Shown in pieces: positions 4,137-21,448 of a stretch of DNA of 21,934 nt (positions within the stretch are counted from its first letter, which is position 1; every line of letters starts with the position of its first letter). Under the pieces are notes generated by a model. That model worked only from the letters and a program-made list of their open reading frames with translations. It did not search any database and was not told where the DNA came from. The DNA is from a virus. The stretch lies in IMG/VR virus record IMGVR_UViG_3300037258_000348, positions 1 through 21,934 of that record; one strand, given 5' to 3'. The position numbers and the translations under genes were made by a program.

Positions 4137-4699
4137 CCGTGACCTGCGCCCGCGCCGAGGCGGCACGCGAGAGCCTGGCCGCCATCCCCCGCCTGTACGT
4201 CCGGCTGCACCTCGCGCTCGGCGTGCACGGCGGCGGCGCTGACCGGGCCGCGACCGCGACCGCCGCGCCGCTGCCGATCCGCCTCGACGCCTGGACCGCC
4301 ATGGAGGACATCACCCGGACCGTGGTGTCCTGGCACGGCCGCGCGCTCCTGCGCAGCGGCGCCCGCCGCTGCCCCGACCCGCGCACCGCCGGCCCGCGCC
4401 AGCTCGGCTTGTCGGCACGGTGGCTGGCGGGCGCGTGGGAGTCCGTCACCGCCAGCGATGACGGACCCGGCCTGTGCGAGTCGCTGATCAGGGTCGAGGG
4501 CCGCGCACGGCACGTCCTGAGCCTGGACAAGCTCGTGCACCCGCTCCCGGTGCCGTGCCCGCACTGCGGCGGGCAGCTCTCCCGCGCGGACGGCACGAGC
4601 GTGGTCCGCTGCCGCGGCTGCCGGGCGTCGTGGACGGAGGAGATGTACCGGCTGCTGGTCACCATCCTGGCCGCCGAGCTGACCGGGGCGGGCACGTGA
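4133..4699 (+). CDS. Helical protein with C-terminal zinc ribbon
   Basis: The GTG start overlaps the previous stop. The 188-aa product has an N-terminal helical domain of about 130 residues, then a C-terminal zinc ribbon: PCPHCGGQLSR ... RCRGCRASW, with four cysteines in two CxxC pairs. It ends with a helix (LLVTILAAEL). Proteins with this layout recur next to MerR-like HTH genes in actinophages and prophages, as here (the next gene). A DNA-binding or regulatory role is plausible but unproven. Confidence 0.6.
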   Translation: MTVTCARAEAARESLAAIPRLYVRLHLALGVHGGGADRAATATAAPLPIRLDAWTAMEDITRTVVSWHGRALLRSGARRCPDPRTAGPRQLGLSARWLAGAWESVTASDDGPGLCESLIRVEGRARHVLSLDKLVHPLPVPCPHCGGQLSRADGTSVVRCRGCRASWTEEMYRLLVTILAAELTGAGT

Positions 4700-4965
4700 C
4701 CGGCACGCCGCTGCTCACCGGCCGCGAGGCCGCCGCGCTCGCCGGCGTGTCCTACTCGGCGTTCAGGAACTGGGTCGCGGCCGGCCTGCTCAAGCCGGTC
4801 GGGAAGCAGGCCGTCCTGACCATGGATGGCCGTACCCGCTGGGTGCAGGTCTTCAGCCCCGCCCACGTGCGGGCCGCTGAGCAGGCGACACGCGAACGTC
4901 ACGCTACGTGGGGGAGACTTGCGCATCGTGTCCGTGCGGGACATGATGACCTCATGCTGGGATGA
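4696..4965 (+). CDS. MerR-like helix-turn-helix protein
   Basis: The GTG start at 4696 overlaps the upstream stop. The 89-aa product starts LLTGREAAALAGVSYSAFRNWVAAGLLKPVG, a clear helix-turn-helix of the MerR/excisionase superfamily (about residues 6-35). A wing-like strand (GRTRWVQVFSPAHVRA) and a C-terminal helix follow. It lacks the dimerisation and effector domains of full MerR regulators. It probably regulates transcription or recombination in the phage. It is coupled to the zinc-ribbon gene, so both are likely expressed together. Confidence 0.6.
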   Translation: MTGTPLLTGREAAALAGVSYSAFRNWVAAGLLKPVGKQAVLTMDGRTRWVQVFSPAHVRAAEQATRERHATWGRLAHRVRAGHDDLMLG

Positions 4966-6899: not shown

Positions 6900-7137
6900 G
6901 GGATGGCGGCCCCAGCCGCCGCAGGAATACGCCGCCAAGGGCATTACCAACGCGGGTGCCGCCCCCGATTACCAGGGCGTTATCTTCAGCGACGGCACCG
7001 TGTGCATCCGCTGGTGCACCGAGTACAAGTCGCACAGCACCTGGCAGTGCTGGGCCGATTTCCACCGGGTCCACGGGCACCCGGAGTACGGGACGCTCAT
7101 CAAGTTCAGCGACGGCGGCTCCGCCCCAGACGCGTGA
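6886..7137 (+). CDS. 83-aa protein of the deazaguanine operon, unknown function
   Basis: A TTG start at 6886 is supported by an AAGGGACGG-type ribosome binding site just upstream. The ORF overlaps the ParB-like stop by 14 bp and the dpdA start by GTGA. The product reads TFEGWRPQPPQEYAAKGITNAG, then a strand-rich core (GVIFSDGTVCIRWCTEYKS) and FHRVHGHPEYGTLIKF. It is a compact, aromatic-rich, beta-strand protein. I do not recognise an enzymatic motif. Its location between the ParB-like protein and the transglycosylase, in a tightly coupled operon, makes it a candidate accessory subunit of the DNA-modifying machine. Confidence 0.65.
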   Translation: MRTFEGWRPQPPQEYAAKGITNAGAAPDYQGVIFSDGTVCIRWCTEYKSHSTWQCWADFHRVHGHPEYGTLIKFSDGGSAPDA

Positions 7138-8033
7138 ACCTCGCCTACCCGGTCGACACCCTGGTCTCCTATCACTACTACGGCGGCGACGACATCATGG
7201 AGGCGATCACCGGGGCCGGGCGGCTGCGCCTGATCGGTGACAGCGGCGCGTTCAGCGCGCATACCCAGGGCGCCGTGATCACCCTCGGCGCCTACGCCGG
7301 GTGGGTCAGCCGATGGCAGGACCGCCTCGCGTGGGCGGCGTCCCTGGACGTGATCGGCGACCCCGACGCGACGTGGGCGAACTGGCTCCAGCTCCGCGAC
7401 GGGCACGGCGTGACCACCGTGCCGACCCTGCATGCCGGGACCGACCCGGCGTGGCTGGACCGGTACGCGGACGAGGGCGTGGACTTCGCCGGCCTGGGCG
7501 GCCTGGTCGGCAGGCAGGCCGCGGCGGTCATGCCGTGGCTGGTGCACGTGTTCCGGTACTGCCGCGACCGGCACCCCGCCATGCGGTTCCACGCGTGGGG
7601 CGTGTCCGGCCGCCGCATCCTCGACGCGCTGCCGTTCTGGTCCGCCGATTCCTCCTACGCCCTGTCCGCAGGGTGGCGGTACGGGAAGTTCTTCCTGTTC
7701 GACCCGCGCACCGCGCGGACCACCGGGTTCGCCCTCGACGGCCGCGACCCGTACCGGCACAACGACCTGATCAGCCGCATCTACGGCGCCGACCCCGCCA
7801 GCCTGACCCCCTCGAACCGGACCGCCTGCGTCAAGCTCGCCGCCGCGTCCGCCCAGCAGTACGCCGCGTGGCTCCAGGCCCGCCACAAGGTGACCCCGCC
7901 CGCGTCCGCGACGCTGACCGGCACCCGGTTCCACGTCGCGCCGTGCAAGAGCGAGGTAGCCAGCCTGCTGACCGGCCCGCGCGTGCACGTCACCACCGCC
8001 GAGAACGCCCTGATGAAACGGATCGCCGAATGA
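7134..8033 (+). CDS. dpdA: DpdA-like DNA 7-deazaguanine transglycosylase (TGT superfamily)
   Basis: The 299-aa product resembles phage DpdA proteins, relatives of tRNA-guanine transglycosylase that exchange guanine in DNA for a 7-deazaguanine base. Visible TGT-like elements are DSGAFS (Asp36, equivalent to the DSGGF catalytic Asp region), SLDVIGD (Asp72/Asp76), PTLHAG, the GLGGLVG glycine loop (about 120-126) and FHAWGVSG. It is shorter than tRNA TGT and lacks the CxCxxC zinc insertion seen in tRNA enzymes. The C-terminal ~80 residues are family-specific. It is coupled to its neighbours by GTGA upstream and ATGA downstream. Immediate linkage to queC, queD, queE and folE is the strongest support for the assignment. 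Confidence 0.82.
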   Translation: MNLAYPVDTLVSYHYYGGDDIMEAITGAGRLRLIGDSGAFSAHTQGAVITLGAYAGWVSRWQDRLAWAASLDVIGDPDATWANWLQLRDGHGVTTVPTLHAGTDPAWLDRYADEGVDFAGLGGLVGRQAAAVMPWLVHVFRYCRDRHPAMRFHAWGVSGRRILDALPFWSADSSYALSAGWRYGKFFLFDPRTARTTGFALDGRDPYRHNDLISRIYGADPASLTPSNRTACVKLAAASAQQYAAWLQARHKVTPPASATLTGTRFHVAPCKSEVASLLTGPRVHVTTAENALMKRIAE

Positions 8034-8689
8034 TCATCCTGCTCTCCGGAGGCATGGACTCCACCGTCCTGGCCGCGCACTGCCTCGCCGCCGGACTCCA
8101 TACCGAGGCGCTGACCGTCGACTACGGGCAGCGGCACGCCCGCGAGATCGAGGCGGCGAAGGCCGTCGCGTCCTACTTCGGGATCCGCCACGACGTGATC
8201 ACCCTCCCTGTCGGGCCGCTGCTCACGGGGTCCGCGCTCACCGACCCGTCCGTCGACGTGCCGGACGGCCACTACGCCGAGCCCAGCATGGCGGCCACGA
8301 TCGTCCCCAACCGCAACGCGATGATGCTCATGACAGCCGCAGCGGTCGCCGCCGCACGCGGTCACTCCCTCGTCGCCACCGCCGTCCACGCCGGGGACCA
8401 CCCGGTGTACCCCGACTGCCGGCCCGAGTTCGTCGAGGCCGCGTCGCGGTGCGCCGCACTCGGCACCGCCGGGCACGGTGACGTGGAGATCACCGCGCCG
8501 TTCGTGACCATGACCAAGGGCGAGATAGCCCGGCACGGCCTCCGGCTCGGTGCGCCGCTGGAGCTGTCGTGGTCCTGCTACAAGGGCGGCGAGCGGCCGT
8601 GCGGGACCTGCGGGACCTGCACCGAGCGGGCCGAGGCATTCGCCCTGGCCGGCGCCCCCGACCCCGCCATCCTCGAGGCGGGCCGGTGA
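8030..8689 (+). CDS. queC: QueC, 7-cyano-7-deazaguanine (preQ0) synthase
   Basis: QueC converts 7-carboxy-7-deazaguanine to preQ0 using ATP and ammonia. The 219-aa product has the PP-loop SGGMDS at residues 6-11, the VDYGQRHAREIEAA block, and PNRNAMMLMTAAAVAAARG. The C-terminal zinc site is Cys183, Cys191, Cys194 and Cys197 (SWSCYKGGERPCGTCGTC). Length and motifs match stand-alone QueC. There is no fused glutamine amidotransferase domain as in Gat-QueC proteins, so the product should be preQ0 rather than an amidated derivative. ATG overlaps the dpdA stop. It supplies the base used by the neighbouring transglycosylase. Confidence 0.93.
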   Translation: MIILLSGGMDSTVLAAHCLAAGLHTEALTVDYGQRHAREIEAAKAVASYFGIRHDVITLPVGPLLTGSALTDPSVDVPDGHYAEPSMAATIVPNRNAMMLMTAAAVAAARGHSLVATAVHAGDHPVYPDCRPEFVEAASRCAALGTAGHGDVEITAPFVTMTKGEIARHGLRLGAPLELSWSCYKGGERPCGTCGTCTERAEAFALAGAPDPAILEAGR

Positions 8690-9114
8690 CCCGCCACTCA
8701 GTCACGGTCAGGCACACGTGGGAGGCGGCGCACCGGCTCCCGCACCTGCCCGGCAAGTGCCAGAGCCTGCACGGCCACTCCTGGGCCGCCGCCGTCACCG
8801 TCACCGCGCCCGAGCTGGCCGGCGGCATGCTCGTGGAGTTCGGGCCGTTCAAGACCGCGCTCCGCGCCTGGATCGATGACAACCTCGACCACGGCGCGAT
8901 GCTCGGCCCCGCCGACCCGCTCACGGCCGCGCTGGCCGGCGAGCGCTGCAAGGTGTTCCCGGTGCCGGGCTGGCCGACCGTCGAGAACATCGCCGCCCTC
9001 CTCGCCGTCGTCGCGCAGCGGGAACTGGGCAGGCTGACCCGCGCGCCCGGCGCCGCCGTCGCCTGCGTCCGGGTCCGGGAGACACCCGTGAACGAGGCCG
9101 CGTGGCACCGCTGA
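8686..9114 (+). CDS. queD: QueD, 6-carboxy-5,6,7,8-tetrahydropterin synthase
   Basis: QueD turns dihydroneopterin triphosphate into 6-carboxytetrahydropterin. The 142-aa product has the PTPS fold signature: WEAAHRLPHLPGKCQSLHGHSW with zinc ligands His16, His29 and His31 and catalytic Cys25. The MLVEFGPFK strand, the NLDHGAML motif and PTVENIA follow, and VRVRETP closes the domain. The GTG start at 8686 overlaps the queC stop. The length is normal for the family. It performs the second step of the preQ0 pathway encoded here, between FolE and QueE. Confidence 0.93.
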   Translation: MTRHSVTVRHTWEAAHRLPHLPGKCQSLHGHSWAAAVTVTAPELAGGMLVEFGPFKTALRAWIDDNLDHGAMLGPADPLTAALAGERCKVFPVPGWPTVENIAALLAVVAQRELGRLTRAPGAAVACVRVRETPVNEAAWHR

Positions 9115-9803
9115 CCCTGGTCGTCTCCGAGGTCTTCGGCCCCACCATCCAGGGCGAAGGACCCAGCGCGGGCCGCTGCGCCGGGTTCATCCGCCTGGGC
9201 GGGTGCAACCTCCGGTGCCGCTGGTGCGACGCCGCGTACACGTGGGACGCGGCACGGTATGACCTGCGCGAGGAAACCCGCCGCCTGGCCGTCGAGGAGA
9301 TCGCGGCGCGGGCACTGCAAGGCGGCCCGCCGCTGGTCGTGATCACCGGAGGCGAGCCGCTGCTGCACCAGGGACAGCCCGGCTGGGACCTGCTCCTCGG
9401 CCGGCTCGCCGCCCGCGCCGAGATCGAGATCGAGACCAACGGCACCGTCATGGCCACCCCAGCGACCCTGAGCGTGGCACGCCTGAACGTGAGCCCGAAG
9501 CTCGCCCACTCCGGTGACCCGCGCGCCGCGCGGATCCGCCCCGCCGTCCTGGCCGGCCTCGCCGACACCCGCCGCGCCGTGTTCAAGTTCGTGTGCCGCG
9601 ACATCGCCGACCTGGACGAGGCCGAGGAGATCGCCGTCCGCGCCGCCATCCCCGCGCAGCGGATATGGATCATGCCCGAAGGCACCACCCGCGAGGAGAT
9701 CACCGCACGCCTCGCGCTCCTCGCCCAGCCCGCCGCCGACCGCGGCTGGAACATCACCACGCGCCTGCACATCCACGCGTGGGGCAACGAGCGGGGCCGC
9801 TGA
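9102..9803 (+). CDS. queE: QueE, 7-carboxy-7-deazaguanine synthase (radical SAM)
   Basis: QueE is a radical-SAM enzyme that contracts 6-carboxytetrahydropterin to 7-carboxy-7-deazaguanine. The 233-aa product begins with FGPTIQGEGPSAGR, followed by the cluster motif CNLRCRWC (Cys35, Cys39, Cys42; CX3CX2C). ITGGEPL then binds the SAM amino group, and later come EIETNGT, NVSPKLAHSGD and VFKFVCRD. The GTG start at 9102 overlaps queD by 13 bp. All key residues are present and the length is typical. It is the third step of the pathway in this operon. Confidence 0.93.
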   Translation: MAPLTLVVSEVFGPTIQGEGPSAGRCAGFIRLGGCNLRCRWCDAAYTWDAARYDLREETRRLAVEEIAARALQGGPPLVVITGGEPLLHQGQPGWDLLLGRLAARAEIEIETNGTVMATPATLSVARLNVSPKLAHSGDPRAARIRPAVLAGLADTRRAVFKFVCRDIADLDEAEEIAVRAAIPAQRIWIMPEGTTREEITARLALLAQPAADRGWNITTRLHIHAWGNERGR

Positions 9804-10378
9804 TGAACCTGGACGAGGCACGCAGCCACCCCGCCACCGCGCACGCCCGCGCCATGCTCACCGCGCTCGGCCTCGCGCCCTGCCGCGAGGAGACCGCCGA
9901 CACGCCGGCCCGGTTCGTCCGCGCCCTCGCCGAGCTGACCAGCGGCCTGGACACCGACCCGGCCCGGCACCTCGCCGTGACGTTCCCCCCGCCGTCCGAT
10001 GATCCCGGCCTGGTCGTCATCCCCGGCATCCCGTTCACCGCCGTGTGCGAGCATCACCTGCTCCCGTTCAGCGGCACCGCGACGGTTGCCTACCTGCCTG
10101 CCTCGCGCATCGTGGGCCTGTCCAAGCTCGCCCGCCTGGTGCAGGAGTACGCCGCCCGCCCGCAGGTACAGGAACGCCTCGGTGACCAGATCACCGCGGC
10201 GATCGTCACGCACCTCGACGTGCGCGGCGCCGCGTGCATCCTGCGCGCGGTCCACACCTGCATGACCCTGCGCGGCGCCCGCGCGGCCGGCGCGGTCACC
10301 GTCACCTCGCACCTGCGGGGCGCCCTCCGCGACGACGCGGCAGCACGCGCCGAGCTGCTGCGGTTCGCCGGGCCGTGA
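9803..10378 (+). CDS. folE: FolE, GTP cyclohydrolase I
   Basis: FolE makes 7,8-dihydroneopterin triphosphate from GTP, the entry step to preQ0. The 191-aa product carries VCEHHLLPFSG (Cys82 and His85, zinc ligands), RIVGLSKLARLVQEYAARPQVQERL, and HTCMTLRG with Cys153, the third zinc ligand. Length matches bacterial FolE. ATG at 9803 shares one base with the queE stop. A phage copy frees the pathway from host folate control. It is the last biosynthetic gene of the operon. Confidence 0.93.
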   Translation: MNLDEARSHPATAHARAMLTALGLAPCREETADTPARFVRALAELTSGLDTDPARHLAVTFPPPSDDPGLVVIPGIPFTAVCEHHLLPFSGTATVAYLPASRIVGLSKLARLVQEYAARPQVQERLGDQITAAIVTHLDVRGAACILRAVHTCMTLRGARAAGAVTVTSHLRGALRDDAAARAELLRFAGP

Positions 10379-16426: not shown

Positions 16427-17413
16427 ATGCCCATCAAGCCGGTAATGAGCCGCGCCGACGCGATCGCCCTGATCGTGGAGGAACGCGGCGCCGAGGTCGT
16501 CCAGCTCGCCGAGCAGCAGTCCGTCGCGATGGCCGCGTTCACCAAGCAGCCCATGGGTACCAGCATCCGGGAGATACCGCTGCTGGAGACCCTGCCGTCC
16601 GCGTACTGGCTGGACAGCGGCGACCAGGGCGACAAGACCGGCGCCGCCGCGAAGGACGATGCGGTCAAGCCGACCACCAGCATGAAGTTCGGGGTCAAGA
16701 AGCTGGTAGCCGAGGAGATCGCCTGCATCGCGGTCATCCCGGAGGCGGTGCTGGAAGACGCCCACTACGACCTGTGGGGGTTCATCCGCGCCCGCGCGGC
16801 CGAGGCCATCGGGCGGGCCGTCGACATGGCCGTCTTCTTCGGCGCGGCCGTCGACTCCAAGGGCACGGTCGGCACCGCGCCCGCCTCATTCGGCGGCGGC
16901 CTGTTCAAGATGGCCACCGACAACGACCACGTCCACCAGGCGGCCGAGGACCCCGACATCGGCGAGGACTTCAACCTCGCCATGGCGCTGATCGAGGACG
17001 ACAACTACAACCCGGCCGCCGCGTTCTGCGGCAACTCCCTCAAGCCCAAGCTGCGCGGGCTGCGGGACAAGAACGGGAACCCGATCTACGCGCCGGGCCT
17101 GCGCAACCAGCCCGGTGTCGCGTCCGCCGACGCCGTGTACGGGGTGCCGACCCGGTACTCCACCAACGGCGCGTGGGACCCGACCAAGGCCGTCGCGATC
17201 CTCGCCGACCCGCAGTACTGCATCATCGGCGTCCGGCAGGACATCCAGGCGAAGTTCCTGGACCAGGCCACCATCCAGGGCGTCAACCTGGCCGAGACCG
17301 ACCAGCTCGCGCTCCGCATCCGCGCCCGGTTCGGGTTCACCGTCCTGTGCCCCAAGGGCCTGGGACAGTCCGCCAAGCCGTTCCCGGCGGCGGTGATCAG
17401 CCCAAAAGCGTGA
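16427..17413 (+). CDS. Major capsid protein (HK97 fold)
   Basis: The 328-aa product has features of the HK97-fold capsid family. An N-terminal helix is followed by E-loop-like SIREIPLLETLPSAYWLDSG, the spine (VKKLVAEEIACIAVIPEAVLED), an A-domain section (DFNLAMALIEDDNYNPAAAFC, then KPKLRGLRDKNGNPIY) and the ending DQLALRIRARFGFTVLCPKG. AAAAGGAGG gives a near-perfect ribosome binding site, fitting high late expression. Two codons before its stop lies the slippery heptamer C CCA AAA (17401-17407). A -1 shift there would give a 374-aa form ending in an Ig-like half-domain. Confidence 0.92.
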   Translation: MPIKPVMSRADAIALIVEERGAEVVQLAEQQSVAMAAFTKQPMGTSIREIPLLETLPSAYWLDSGDQGDKTGAAAKDDAVKPTTSMKFGVKKLVAEEIACIAVIPEAVLEDAHYDLWGFIRARAAEAIGRAVDMAVFFGAAVDSKGTVGTAPASFGGGLFKMATDNDHVHQAAEDPDIGEDFNLAMALIEDDNYNPAAAFCGNSLKPKLRGLRDKNGNPIYAPGLRNQPGVASADAVYGVPTRYSTNGAWDPTKAVAILADPQYCIIGVRQDIQAKFLDQATIQGVNLAETDQLALRIRARFGFTVLCPKGLGQSAKPFPAAVISPKA

Positions 17414-17446
17414 CCCCGGAGCCGGGACCGTCCGTGACCGGGGTCA
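17401..17446 (+). promoter_or_regulatory. Programmed -1 frameshift site at the end of the capsid gene
   Basis: C CCA AAA at 17401-17407 fits X XXY YYZ in the capsid reading frame (CCA = Pro, AAA = Lys). TGACCCCGG (17411-17419) pairs perfectly with CCGGGGTCA (17438-17446), a 9-bp stem just downstream. If the first three pairs melt, the spacer is 6 nt. A -1 shift bypasses the TGA at 17411 and enters the frame ending at 17550, which encodes IPT/TIG sequence. The similar appending of Ig-like domains to phage capsid and tail proteins by frameshift is known. Confidence 0.75.
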
Positions 17447-17550
17447 GCCCCAGCTCGGGGGCCTCCGCCGGGGGCACCCAGGTCACGATCAGCGGCACCG
17501 GGTTCCGGGCCACGACCAGGACCAAGACGAAGGGGGCCAGCAATGGCTAA
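17410..17550 (+). CDS. N-terminal half of an IPT/TIG Ig-like domain, capsid frameshift extension
   Basis: This 46-codon frame is -1 to the capsid gene. It encodes PSVTGVSPSSGASAGGTQVTISGTGF, the first two strands of an IPT/TIG domain, followed by a basic tail (RATTRTKTKGASNG). The GTG at 17410 overlaps the capsid stop, but expression through the 17401 frameshift is more likely, which would fuse it to capsid subunits. The domain lacks its second half, which lies in the next ORF in another frame. TIG domains on phage particles are thought to bind host-surface or environmental polysaccharides. Confidence 0.7.
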   Translation: MTPEPGPSVTGVSPSSGASAGGTQVTISGTGFRATTRTKTKGASNG

Positions 17551-17719
17551 CACGCCAGCAGTGACGTTCGGCGACCAGCCCGCGACCGATGTCGCGGTCG
17601 TGTCGGACACCGAGATCACCTGCACCTCACCAGCCGGCACGGCCGGCACGGTGGCGGTCACGGTGACCGCCGGCGGCAAGGATGCCTCGCTGCCCGACGG
17701 GTTCACCTACACGGCCTGA
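17543..17719 (+). CDS. C-terminal half of an IPT/TIG Ig-like domain (58 aa)
   Basis: ATG at 17543 has GAAGGGGG (17529-17536) 6 nt upstream. The product AVTFGDQPATDVAVVSDTEI ... TAGTVAVTVTAGGKDASLPDGFTYTA corresponds exactly to the second half of an IPT/TIG domain, from strand C to the end. It is in frame +1 (equivalently -2) to the preceding half-domain ORF and overlaps it by 8 bp. It may be an independent small protein that complements the capsid-fused half, the product of a second frameshift, or a remnant of a broken domain. The good ribosome site favours independent synthesis. Confidence 0.65.
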   Translation: MANTPAVTFGDQPATDVAVVSDTEITCTSPAGTAGTVAVTVTAGGKDASLPDGFTYTA

Positions 17720-17736: not shown

Positions 17737-17773
17737 CCGGGTCCGCGCCGCCACAGCAGCGGCGCGGACCCGG
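17737..17773 (+). terminator. Perfect 15-bp hairpin after the capsid/Ig genes
   Basis: CCGGGTCCGCGCCGC (17737-17751) pairs with GCGGCGCGGACCCGG (17759-17773) around a 7-nt loop. It is one of the most stable structures in the window and follows the capsid block in a 121-bp gap. No U-tract is present, as is common in high-GC actinobacteria. It probably lowers transcription of downstream genes or protects the capsid mRNA 3' end. Confidence 0.55.
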
Positions 17774-17840: not shown

Positions 17841-18113
17841 ATGACCGCAACCGTCAAGTTCGGCACCGCCGAGGCGACCGGCGTCACCGTCAGGAACGAC
17901 ACCACGATCGAGTGCACGACACCGCCCGGCGCCGGCACCGCCGACGTGTCGGTCACCACGGACGGCGGCACCGCCGCCAAGGCCGGCGGGTTCACCTACC
18001 AGCCGCCCCCGCCGCCCGAGCCCACGGTGACCGCTGTCGCGCCCGCCACCGGCCCGGCCGCCGGCGGGACCGCGACCACCATCACCGGCACCGGGTTCAA
18101 GGAAGGCAAGTAA
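17841..18113 (+). CDS. Permuted IPT/TIG protein: C-half, Pro linker, N-half
   Basis: The 90-aa product begins with the second half of an IPT/TIG domain (ATVKFGTAEATGVTVRNDTT then IECTTPPGAGTADVSV ... GGFTYQ, residues 3-54). A PPPPPEP linker follows, then the first half of another IPT domain (TVTAVAPATGPAAGGTATTI, GTGFKEGK) and stop. No complete domain is present in the usual order. The N-half and C-half could pair within the chain as a circular permutant, or with half-domains on the capsid-fused and tail-tube proteins. ATG at 17841 has a G-rich upstream region (AGAGGACACGGGGCAG). I know of no named family with this order. Confidence 0.65.
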   Translation: MTATVKFGTAEATGVTVRNDTTIECTTPPGAGTADVSVTTDGGTAAKAGGFTYQPPPPPEPTVTAVAPATGPAAGGTATTITGTGFKEGK

Positions 18114-18118
18114 ACCCC

Positions 18119-19039
18119 ATGAGCCGCGTGAGGAACACCGCGTGCGCGCTGCTGACGGCGGCAGCACTGGCCGCGCCCGGCGTCACGGTCAGCGCCGCCC
18201 CGCCGCCGCCGCTGGACAGCACGGTCATCAACGACGGAGCCGTGGTCCCCGCGGTACCCGCCGCGCAGCAGGCACCCGCGGTACCGCTGCCCGCAGGCGA
18301 GCAGGCCGACCAGGGGTCAGCGCTGCTGCGCCGCGTGCTGGCCGAGGCCCGCAAGTGGACCGGCACCCTGGAAGTCCCCCGCGACTCCAACCGGACGATC
18401 TTCGGGCAGGACTACGGGTGGGACGGCGTGGCCTGGTGCGCCATCTTCGTGTCGACCATCTCCCAGTGGGCCGGCGCGAAGGCCGGCGTGGTGTACCCGC
18501 GCACCGCCTCGGTGGCTGCCGCCCGCGCGTGGTTCCTGAAGCAAGGCCGGTTCGGCCGGCAGCCCGAACCGGGTGACTGGGTGATCTTCGGCCCCACGGG
18601 CGCCGATCATGTCGAGCTCGTCGTGAAGGTCACCGCGACGCAGATCGAGACGATCGGCGGGAACACCAACGTCGGCCCGCAGTCCCACGGCGGCGCGGAC
18701 GGCGTATACGAGATCCGGTACCTGCGGACCAACCCCGCGATCGACGGCTACGGCCACCCGCTCTACGCCGCCCCCTCAGGCACCGCCGGCAGCGGGCACG
18801 GGCCGCTGCCCGGCCCCGCCGGGCTGCTGCCGGTGACCGGCGGCGACCGGGACCGGCTTGCCGTCCTGGCCTGCCTGGGAGCGGCGCTGCTGGCGGGCGG
18901 TACCGGACTGCGGTACGCGTGGCGGCGGCGCGGCGCGCACCAGCGGCGCCTGCACGTCATCGCGGCGTGCGCCGCGATCCTTGCAGCGGCAGCCGCCGCC
19001 GGGACGCTCGCCGCCGCCCTGGTACTGGCGGCCACGTGA
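18119..19039 (+). CDS. Secreted CHAP-domain cell-wall hydrolase with LPVTG sorting-like signal
   Basis: The 306-aa product starts with a signal peptide (RVRNTACALLTAAALAAPGVTVSA, cleavage near residue 26). A Pro/Ala linker leads to a CHAP amidase/endopeptidase domain, about 68-205. Cys107 in AWCAIFVS, His164 in ADHVELV and Asn182 in GGNTN are the likely catalytic residues. LPVTG follows at 237-241, then a hydrophobic helix and WRRRG, resembling a sortase signal, and then a second hydrophobic helix at about 275-304. It is 5 nt after the split-Ig gene, inside the structural operon, not in a lysis cassette. It could be a surface-anchored hydrolase of the lysogen or infected cell, or a virion-associated enzyme. 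The second helix argues that it may simply be a membrane anchor. Confidence 0.75.
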   Translation: MSRVRNTACALLTAAALAAPGVTVSAAPPPPLDSTVINDGAVVPAVPAAQQAPAVPLPAGEQADQGSALLRRVLAEARKWTGTLEVPRDSNRTIFGQDYGWDGVAWCAIFVSTISQWAGAKAGVVYPRTASVAAARAWFLKQGRFGRQPEPGDWVIFGPTGADHVELVVKVTATQIETIGGNTNVGPQSHGGADGVYEIRYLRTNPAIDGYGHPLYAAPSGTAGSGHGPLPGPAGLLPVTGGDRDRLAVLACLGAALLAGGTGLRYAWRRRGAHQRRLHVIAACAAILAAAAAAGTLAAALVLAAT

Positions 19040-20701: not shown

Positions 20702-21448
20702 ATGCCCGCTGCTGCACCCGCGCCAGTTACCGGCGCCGTGACACCGCACGCCCCGTCCGGGGGAACCGAGATCGTCCTGCCCGGCGGCGCCGCCGGCATG
20801 CCCGTGGTCGCGGGCAACGGCGACATCTACGTCGCGCCCGCGCTCACCCCGTGCCCCAGCACGCTCATCGCCGAGCCCGCCTCCCCGTGGCGGCGCCTGG
20901 GACTGGTCACCGAGGACGGCGTGACGTGGACGCCGCCGAGCGAGGAAACCGAGGAAGTAAAGGCCTGGCAGTCCAGGTACCCGGTCAGGATCGTGACCAC
21001 CGGCCTGTCCACATCGGTCGGGTTCAGCCTGCTGGAATGGTCACGGACCACGGTCGAGGTCACCCTGGGCGGCGGGACCTGGGAAGACTCCGGTGAGCTG
21101 GTCATCTACAAGCCGCCGCCGGCCGGCGCGGCCTCCGAGGTCGCCCTGTTCGTGGCCGCCGTCGACGGCAGCAGGATCTACGGGATCTACCTGCCCAAGT
21201 GCAAGGTGACCGAGCGGGACGACATCAATTTCAAGGCGGACGCTCCCGCGGTCCTGAACATGACGCTCGCGATCGTGGGCCAGCTCGGGCTGGACCCGTA
21301 TCAGCTCGTGTTCGGCAAGGACACGCTGCCCGGCGCGGTAGAGGTGACCGGCGTTGACCCGGCGGCCGGCGCAGCGGCCGGCGGCACCCAGGTCACGATC
21401 ACCGGCAAGGGCTTCGGGCCTGCGACTCAGCCGGCGGTGCGCAAGTGA
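20702..21448 (+). CDS. Major tail tube protein with C-terminal IPT/TIG half-domain
   Basis: AGGAGGT (20687-20693) lies 8 nt before ATG. The 248-aa product has an actinophage tail-tube core: NGDIYVAPALTPCPSTLIA, PWRRLGLVTEDGVTWTPPSE then EVKAWQSRYPVRIVTT, SLLEWSRTTVEVTLGGGTW, YGIYLPKCKVTERDDINFK. The last ~36 residues (213-248) are VEVTGVDPAAGAAAGGTQVT, ITGKGFG and a short tail: the first half of an IPT/TIG domain, ending at the same loop as the other halves in this window. The DNA segment coding GGTQVTI is nearly identical to that at the capsid, suggesting recent copying between genes. Confidence 0.85.
   Translation: MPAAAPAPVTGAVTPHAPSGGTEIVLPGGAAGMPVVAGNGDIYVAPALTPCPSTLIAEPASPWRRLGLVTEDGVTWTPPSEETEEVKAWQSRYPVRIVTTGLSTSVGFSLLEWSRTTVEVTLGGGTWEDSGELVIYKPPPAGAASEVALFVAAVDGSRIYGIYLPKCKVTERDDINFKADAPAVLNMTLAIVGQLGLDPYQLVFGKDTLPGAVEVTGVDPAAGAAAGGTQVTITGKGFGPATQPAVRK

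Follow-up and report, generated by a model that had tools for sequence, protein, structure and literature searches.

A probable frameshift signal at the end of a phage major capsid gene and split IPT/TIG half-domains: candidates for Ig domains completed in trans

Introduction

The work of Fraser et al. of 2006 is reportedly a reference on Ig-like extensions that are added to phage proteins by frameshifting. According to excerpts of PMC5009743 and PMC8718954, a frameshift near the stop codon adds a C-terminal extension, often of the Ig type, to major virion proteins of phages. An earlier note on the DNA analysed here had taken frameshift-appended Ig-like domains on phage structural proteins as known, and these excerpts establish the point. 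Such extensions are present in T3, Lactobacillus A2, Listeria A118/A500/PSA and SPP1 gp17.1, and in the same excerpts they are described as domains (Ig-like or FN3).

The DNA analysed here (the window) comprises a virus record of 21.9 kb without other contigs. Its major capsid gene resembles the above systems in that a frameshift near the stop codon would add a C-terminal extension. In contrast to them, the extension corresponds to half an IPT domain, and the rest is encoded by a separate gene. The tail tube protein of the window shows a similar feature. It belongs to the same family (PF25681) as gp64 of Streptomyces phage Gilgamesh, which has an IPT domain at the same place. The domain of gp64 is whole (TIG profile 1-82 of 84), whereas the tail protein of the window covers only positions 3-26. 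In chaperone-usher pili (donor-strand complementation) and in SpyTag/SpyCatcher, one chain supplies a segment that completes the Ig-like fold of another. Unlike in the pili, no chaperone is seen in the window, and the context is that of a phage capsid and tail. Among the titles and abstract beginnings listed in searches of the open-access literature, no report of a phage capsid with a split IPT/Ig domain was recognised, and the excerpts of PMC3706429 and PMC7150772 contain nothing on a split IPT/Ig domain. Thus, the frameshift itself is a known type of device, and the split half-domains are a new feature. Docking in trans, once demonstrated, would count as a new mechanism.

Results and discussion

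The slippery heptamer and the extension of the capsid protein

The features of the window are collected in Table 1. The 3' end of the capsid gene reads agC CCA AAA gcg tga, and the single codon GCG separates AAA from TGA. The heptamer therefore lies in the phase, and just before the stop, where the earlier note had placed it. No in-phase X XXY YYZ sequence other than C CCA AAA occurs among the 2,976 codon positions of ten window ORFs (including 6903-8033, which has no Pfam match). CCCAAAA occurs once on the two strands of the window. Shuffled sequences contain 0.19 copies on average, and at least one copy was found in 18 of 100 shuffles. Thus, the presence of CCCAAAA alone is weak evidence, and its strength comes from phase and place. 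In nine window ORFs, counted without the heptamer site, Pro is encoded by CCA in 4 of 192 cases and Lys by AAA in 2 of 70. The heptamer site is therefore made of rare codons.

Read from 17401, the -1 frame gives PKSVTPEPGPSVTGVSPSSGASAGGTQVTISGTGFRATTRTKTKGASNG and is ended by the TAA at 17548-17550. The extension adds 47 residues after ...SPK, and a slip on CCA AAA would give a capsid form of 374 residues, in agreement with the length of about 374 residues predicted earlier. The assignment of the -1 frame to IPT/TIG sequence holds as well, with a match to TIG (PF01833) at an E-value of 9.8e-8 and 32.3 bits. The third-position G+C of the extension in the -1 frame is 0.98. The match covers profile positions 1-31 of 84 before the -1 stop, and a whole foldable Ig domain is not encoded there. 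The view that the frameshift adds just half a domain is thus correct for the extension itself and incomplete for the locus, as the remaining half is encoded next door.

Table 1. Positions of the capsid gene, the candidate frameshift elements and the IPT/TIG half-domains in the window. L007 is a related viral contig and L013 a more distant one.
Feature	Position	Strand	Evidence and remarks
Major capsid protein, zero frame, 328 aa	16427..17413	+	PF05065 E 2.3e-21; phrog_10 E 1.3e-42
Slippery heptamer C CCA AAA, -1 phase	17401..17407	+	Sole in-phase X XXY YYZ; conserved in L007 (7251-7257) and L013
Predicted -1 frame extension: linker and IPT/TIG N-half, then short basic tail	17401..17550	+	TIG 1-31/84; G+C3 0.98
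Perfect 9-bp stem with 18-nt loop, possible stimulator	17411..17446 (17411-17419/17438-17446)	+	Inverted repeat; not conserved in L007
orf2, 58 aa, IPT/TIG C-half, own ATG behind GAAGGGGG	17543..17719	+	TIG 32-82/84, E 3.2e-10
Perfect 15-bp hairpin between orf2 and orf3, no T-run	17737..17773	+	Repeat search
orf3, 90 aa, C-half then N-half, resembling the junction between tandem IPT domains	17841..18113	+	TIG 33-84 and a second stretch, E 3.5e-14
Tail tube protein, C-terminus (about 21326-21445) an IPT N-half	20702..21448	+	PF25681 E 1.1e-27; TIG 3-26/84, E 7.2e-5

Conservation in relatives

To find relatives of the window, viral contigs were scanned for capsid and portal matches. L007 is 65% identical to the window in the portal protein and 53% in the capsid protein, and L013 is 44% identical in the capsid protein. 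The earlier note had suggested looking for the heptamer in relatives, and CCCAAAA is in phase near the capsid stop in both contigs: the capsid gene ends with ctC CCA AAA gcc ccg taa in L007 and with ggC CCA AAA gcg ggt ccg taa in L013. Each contig contains one copy, and the opposite strands contain none. The -1 frame is open past the capsid stop for 45 codons in the window, 39 codons in L007 and 235 codons in L013. As L007 and L013 share the heptamer, its place and the -1 extension, a programmed frameshift is well supported computationally. From these comparisons, we consider a -1 programmed ribosomal frameshift at CCCAAAA near the capsid stop to be very probable.

L013 is like the window in having the same in-phase heptamer and a -1 extension with an Ig-like region. 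It is unlike the window in that its -1 frame is much longer, the IPT-like region is unsplit, and no C-half gene follows. The extension of L013 has no match in Pfam, and its match to our own IPT profile, which was built from bacterial IPT domains, is very weak. An IPT protein whose gene lies beside the capsid gene in L076 shares 43% identity with the IPT-like part of this extension.

A perfect 9-bp stem immediately downstream had been counted as a further sign of frameshifting. The stem exists and begins 3 nt past the heptamer. Its fold is unexceptional for the G+C content (z -1.30; 19 of 200 shuffles were equally good), and the fold of 80 bases including the heptamer gives z -0.44. In the 53 bases after the heptamer, L013 has a hairpin (z -1.57), and L007 has no close structure (z +0.63); in a longer, 80-base stretch of L007, a stable structure is located farther off (z -3.26). 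The stem was rejected as the main evidence for the frameshift, because the fold is unexceptional and not conserved. It is a possible stimulator.

An in-phase heptamer at most five codons from the stop, with more than 30 residues of -1 frame beyond, was found in 7 of 84 capsid loci with a stop, which represent 76 distinct capsid sequences. L081 (no stop in the contig), the contig repeats L001, L006, L008, L012 and L092, and also L009-L011 are left out of this number. The seven loci are the window, L007 and L013 with CCCAAAA, L046 with AAAAAAC, L074 with CCCTTTA, and L040 and L091 with GGGGGGT. An eighth locus, L044, has an in-phase heptamer, but its -1 frame gives just 6 residues. The device is therefore absent from most relatives, yet recurrent. 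Even if the halves described below do not join, the conserved CCCAAAA frameshift and this recurrence would represent a habit of the capsid family. In a capsid search of 394 genomes of one class, two matched at E 1e-25 (the known Bifidobacterium locus and L120). The -1 frames of L046, L074, L040 and L091 are open for 34 to 132 codons past the capsid stop, and by eye, the extensions of L046 and L074 resemble small helical SAP-type domains.

Half-domains in the window and in L007

Besides the extension with the bit score given above, orf2 (40.3 bits), orf3 (53.0 bits) and the tail protein (23.1 bits) match PF01833, and all four scores are above the curated cut-off of 20.9. No single chain contains a complete PF01833 domain; the matches cover profile positions 1-31, 32-82, 33-84 and 3-26 of 84. 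The extension and orf2 thus cover adjoining parts of one profile. Our own IPT profile agrees with Pfam, and in orf3 it is matched at positions 23-81 and then 1-29 of 81. The window ends 486 bases past the tail gene, and within it no C-half is located downstream of the N-half of orf3 or of the tail protein. Therefore, only a partner in trans could complete these N-halves. As a separate observation, the 15-bp hairpin that separates orf2 from orf3 might regulate the dose of the genes downstream.

In L007, the extension is followed by a gene starting at ATG 7385, which encodes a C-half and an N-half and is 58% identical to orf3. Further on, AAGGAGG and ATG 7664 precede the start of another C-half, and then the contig ends. 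The extension and the next gene differ by a frame step of +1 in the window, whereas L007 has a step of -1. The split thus recurs in L007 in another frame arrangement, and the halves should therefore be separate proteins. A sequencing or assembly error behind the split was rejected, because L007 is an independent contig with the same break and another frame relation. An intron joining the halves was rejected as unlikely, the gap being only about 50 bases. Judging from the contigs compared, the full split layout is present in two related genomes only, the window and L007. The dN/dS values between them are mixed (extension 0.40, C-half 0.46, orf3 about 1.07, capsid 0.79) and rough, because about 0.9 or more of the third positions are G/C and dS is compressed.

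Viral contigs were searched for further split domains. A DNA pattern of CCCAAAAG followed by an IPT N-half was found in L007 only. A scan for N-halves gave 21 loci: the L007 contig, 16 loci with intact domains only, three without a match to our own profile, and L155, which has intact domains and one split domain. An IPT search in the class of genomes used for the capsid search above gave matches in 61 of 394 genomes, and among the matches listed, long tandem ORFs prevail. Searches of phage records by tblastn with orf3 and with the joined halves gave no match. This null result shows little, because the low-complexity filter masks these domains; a self-search with the Gilgamesh domain recovers just residues 27-83 of 84.

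L155 belongs to another phage. At 4561-4800, a gene for tandem IPT domains, adjacent to a capsid-like gene, stops after GTNFS, and the next gene, which starts via an ATGA overlap, carries the rest of the domain, with the same split point. This split is unrelated to the window and L007 and could be a one-base indel, and we take it as a hint only.

Proposed mechanism and alternative explanations

We propose that the -1 frameshift at C CCA AAA would give a fraction of the capsid subunits the N-terminal half (the first strands) of an IPT/TIG domain, and that the C-terminal half would be made separately by orf2. orf3 would be a connector composed of a C-half and an N-half, and every tail tube subunit would end in a further N-half. 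The halves would most likely join non-covalently in trans, complete Ig domains would be formed, and the N-halves of capsid and tail would thus be docking stubs that capture the small C-half proteins. We give this trans-complementation about even chances. For the locus as a whole, a frameshifted N-half on the capsid that is completed by C-half proteins seems to be the best explanation, one that we consider somewhat more probable than its negation. More tentatively, proteins of the orf3 type could extend the array head to tail, orf2 could be the cap, and a non-covalent Ig chain could grow on both head and tail. We regard such a decoration as conceivable and would not expect it with confidence. 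Isolated Ig half-domains may be unstable, which argues against the proposal.

Alternatively, the halves may be debris, that is, recombination scars or a decayed decoration array of formerly tandem IPT domains, and the split would be functionless. This explanation agrees with the shuffling of IPT domains among phages, with the dN/dS near 1 of orf3 against L007, and with a full layout in just two genomes. Decay does not readily account for a common break point. All five N-half ends (three in the window and two in L007) are located 3-14 residues past G-x-G-F, in two genomes with capsid proteins of the identity given above. The third-position G+C is of the coding type, and Shine-Dalgarno-like starts are present at orf2 and at the L007 genes. 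In the bacterial control loci L096-L118, 89 of 95 IPT matches are full, and no N-half was matched at the end of an ORF. Two matches of the C-half type start at the edge of the stretch, and our own profile was trained on these loci. We therefore consider debris unlikely, but not negligible.

Proteins of the orf3 type might instead complete themselves as a circularly permuted IPT domain, in which case only orf2 would dock on the capsid N-half. AlphaFold was run with two-row alignments on orf3 and on an intact relative. In favour of self-completion, the model of orf3 contains seven strands, at low confidence (pLDDT 67.7, pTM 0.59). The intact relative was also modeled with low confidence (66.3), and IPT/TIG chains are its top structure matches. 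Among the matches listed for the low-confidence orf3 model, there is no IPT chain or Ig-fold, at an alignment depth equal to that of the relative; this is a weak point against self-completion, as sequential aligners are poor with permutations and the alignment is shallow. The two ends of an Ig domain sit at opposite poles. The linker of the connector is like those in tandem IPT arrays and is very short in L007 (AKPPP), which is difficult to reconcile with closure of a permuted domain. In the PDB, connector proteins align across the IPT-IPT joint of plexin A1 and MET. The joint alignment and the short linker fit successive domains of an array better than a permuted domain closed on itself, and we judge self-completion to be rather improbable.

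The extension could also be a separate small gene, in which a terminating ribosome restarts at GTG 17409 and produces a free N-half peptide. This GTG overlaps the capsid stop (GTGA), and the tail protein and the next gene have the same type of overlap at 21445-21448. In L007, however, there is no start codon at the overlap, and the only candidate, ATG 7275, has no Shine-Dalgarno sequence. L013 offers only TTG 2558, one base past GGAG. A separate gene also leaves the conserved rare-codon CCCAAAA in three contigs unexplained. On these grounds, a restart is quite unlikely. Although the halves adjoin in both the window and L007, a second recoding event (frameshifting or bypassing from the extension to orf2) that would link them into a single chain is highly unlikely. 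A second programmed frameshift was rejected for want of a conserved shift (+1 needed in the window, -1 in L007), and within the window neither orf3 nor the tail protein is followed by a C-half to which its N-half could be joined.

If completion of the N-halves by separate C-half proteins is true, the locus would encode a natural two-part fastener on an Ig fold, with a dose set by the frameshift on the capsid and a full dose on the tail. In genetic terms, it would be an easy way to obtain exchangeable or growing arrays on the phage surface, it would be a ready split tag for display, and the function of phage Ig domains would become testable by removing one half.

Other genes in the window

Amid the structural genes, 18119-19039 encodes a CHAP-domain protein (PF05257, E 2.5e-7) with a signal-like start. 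Its C-terminus consists of LPVTG, a hydrophobic stretch and RRR, a motif which we presume to resemble that of a sortase-anchored wall protein. The region 8000-10378 contains genes for QueC, PTPS (QueD-like), radical SAM (QueE-like) and GTP cyclohydrolase I proteins. These genes perhaps represent a preQ0-type pathway for 7-deazaguanine modification of DNA.
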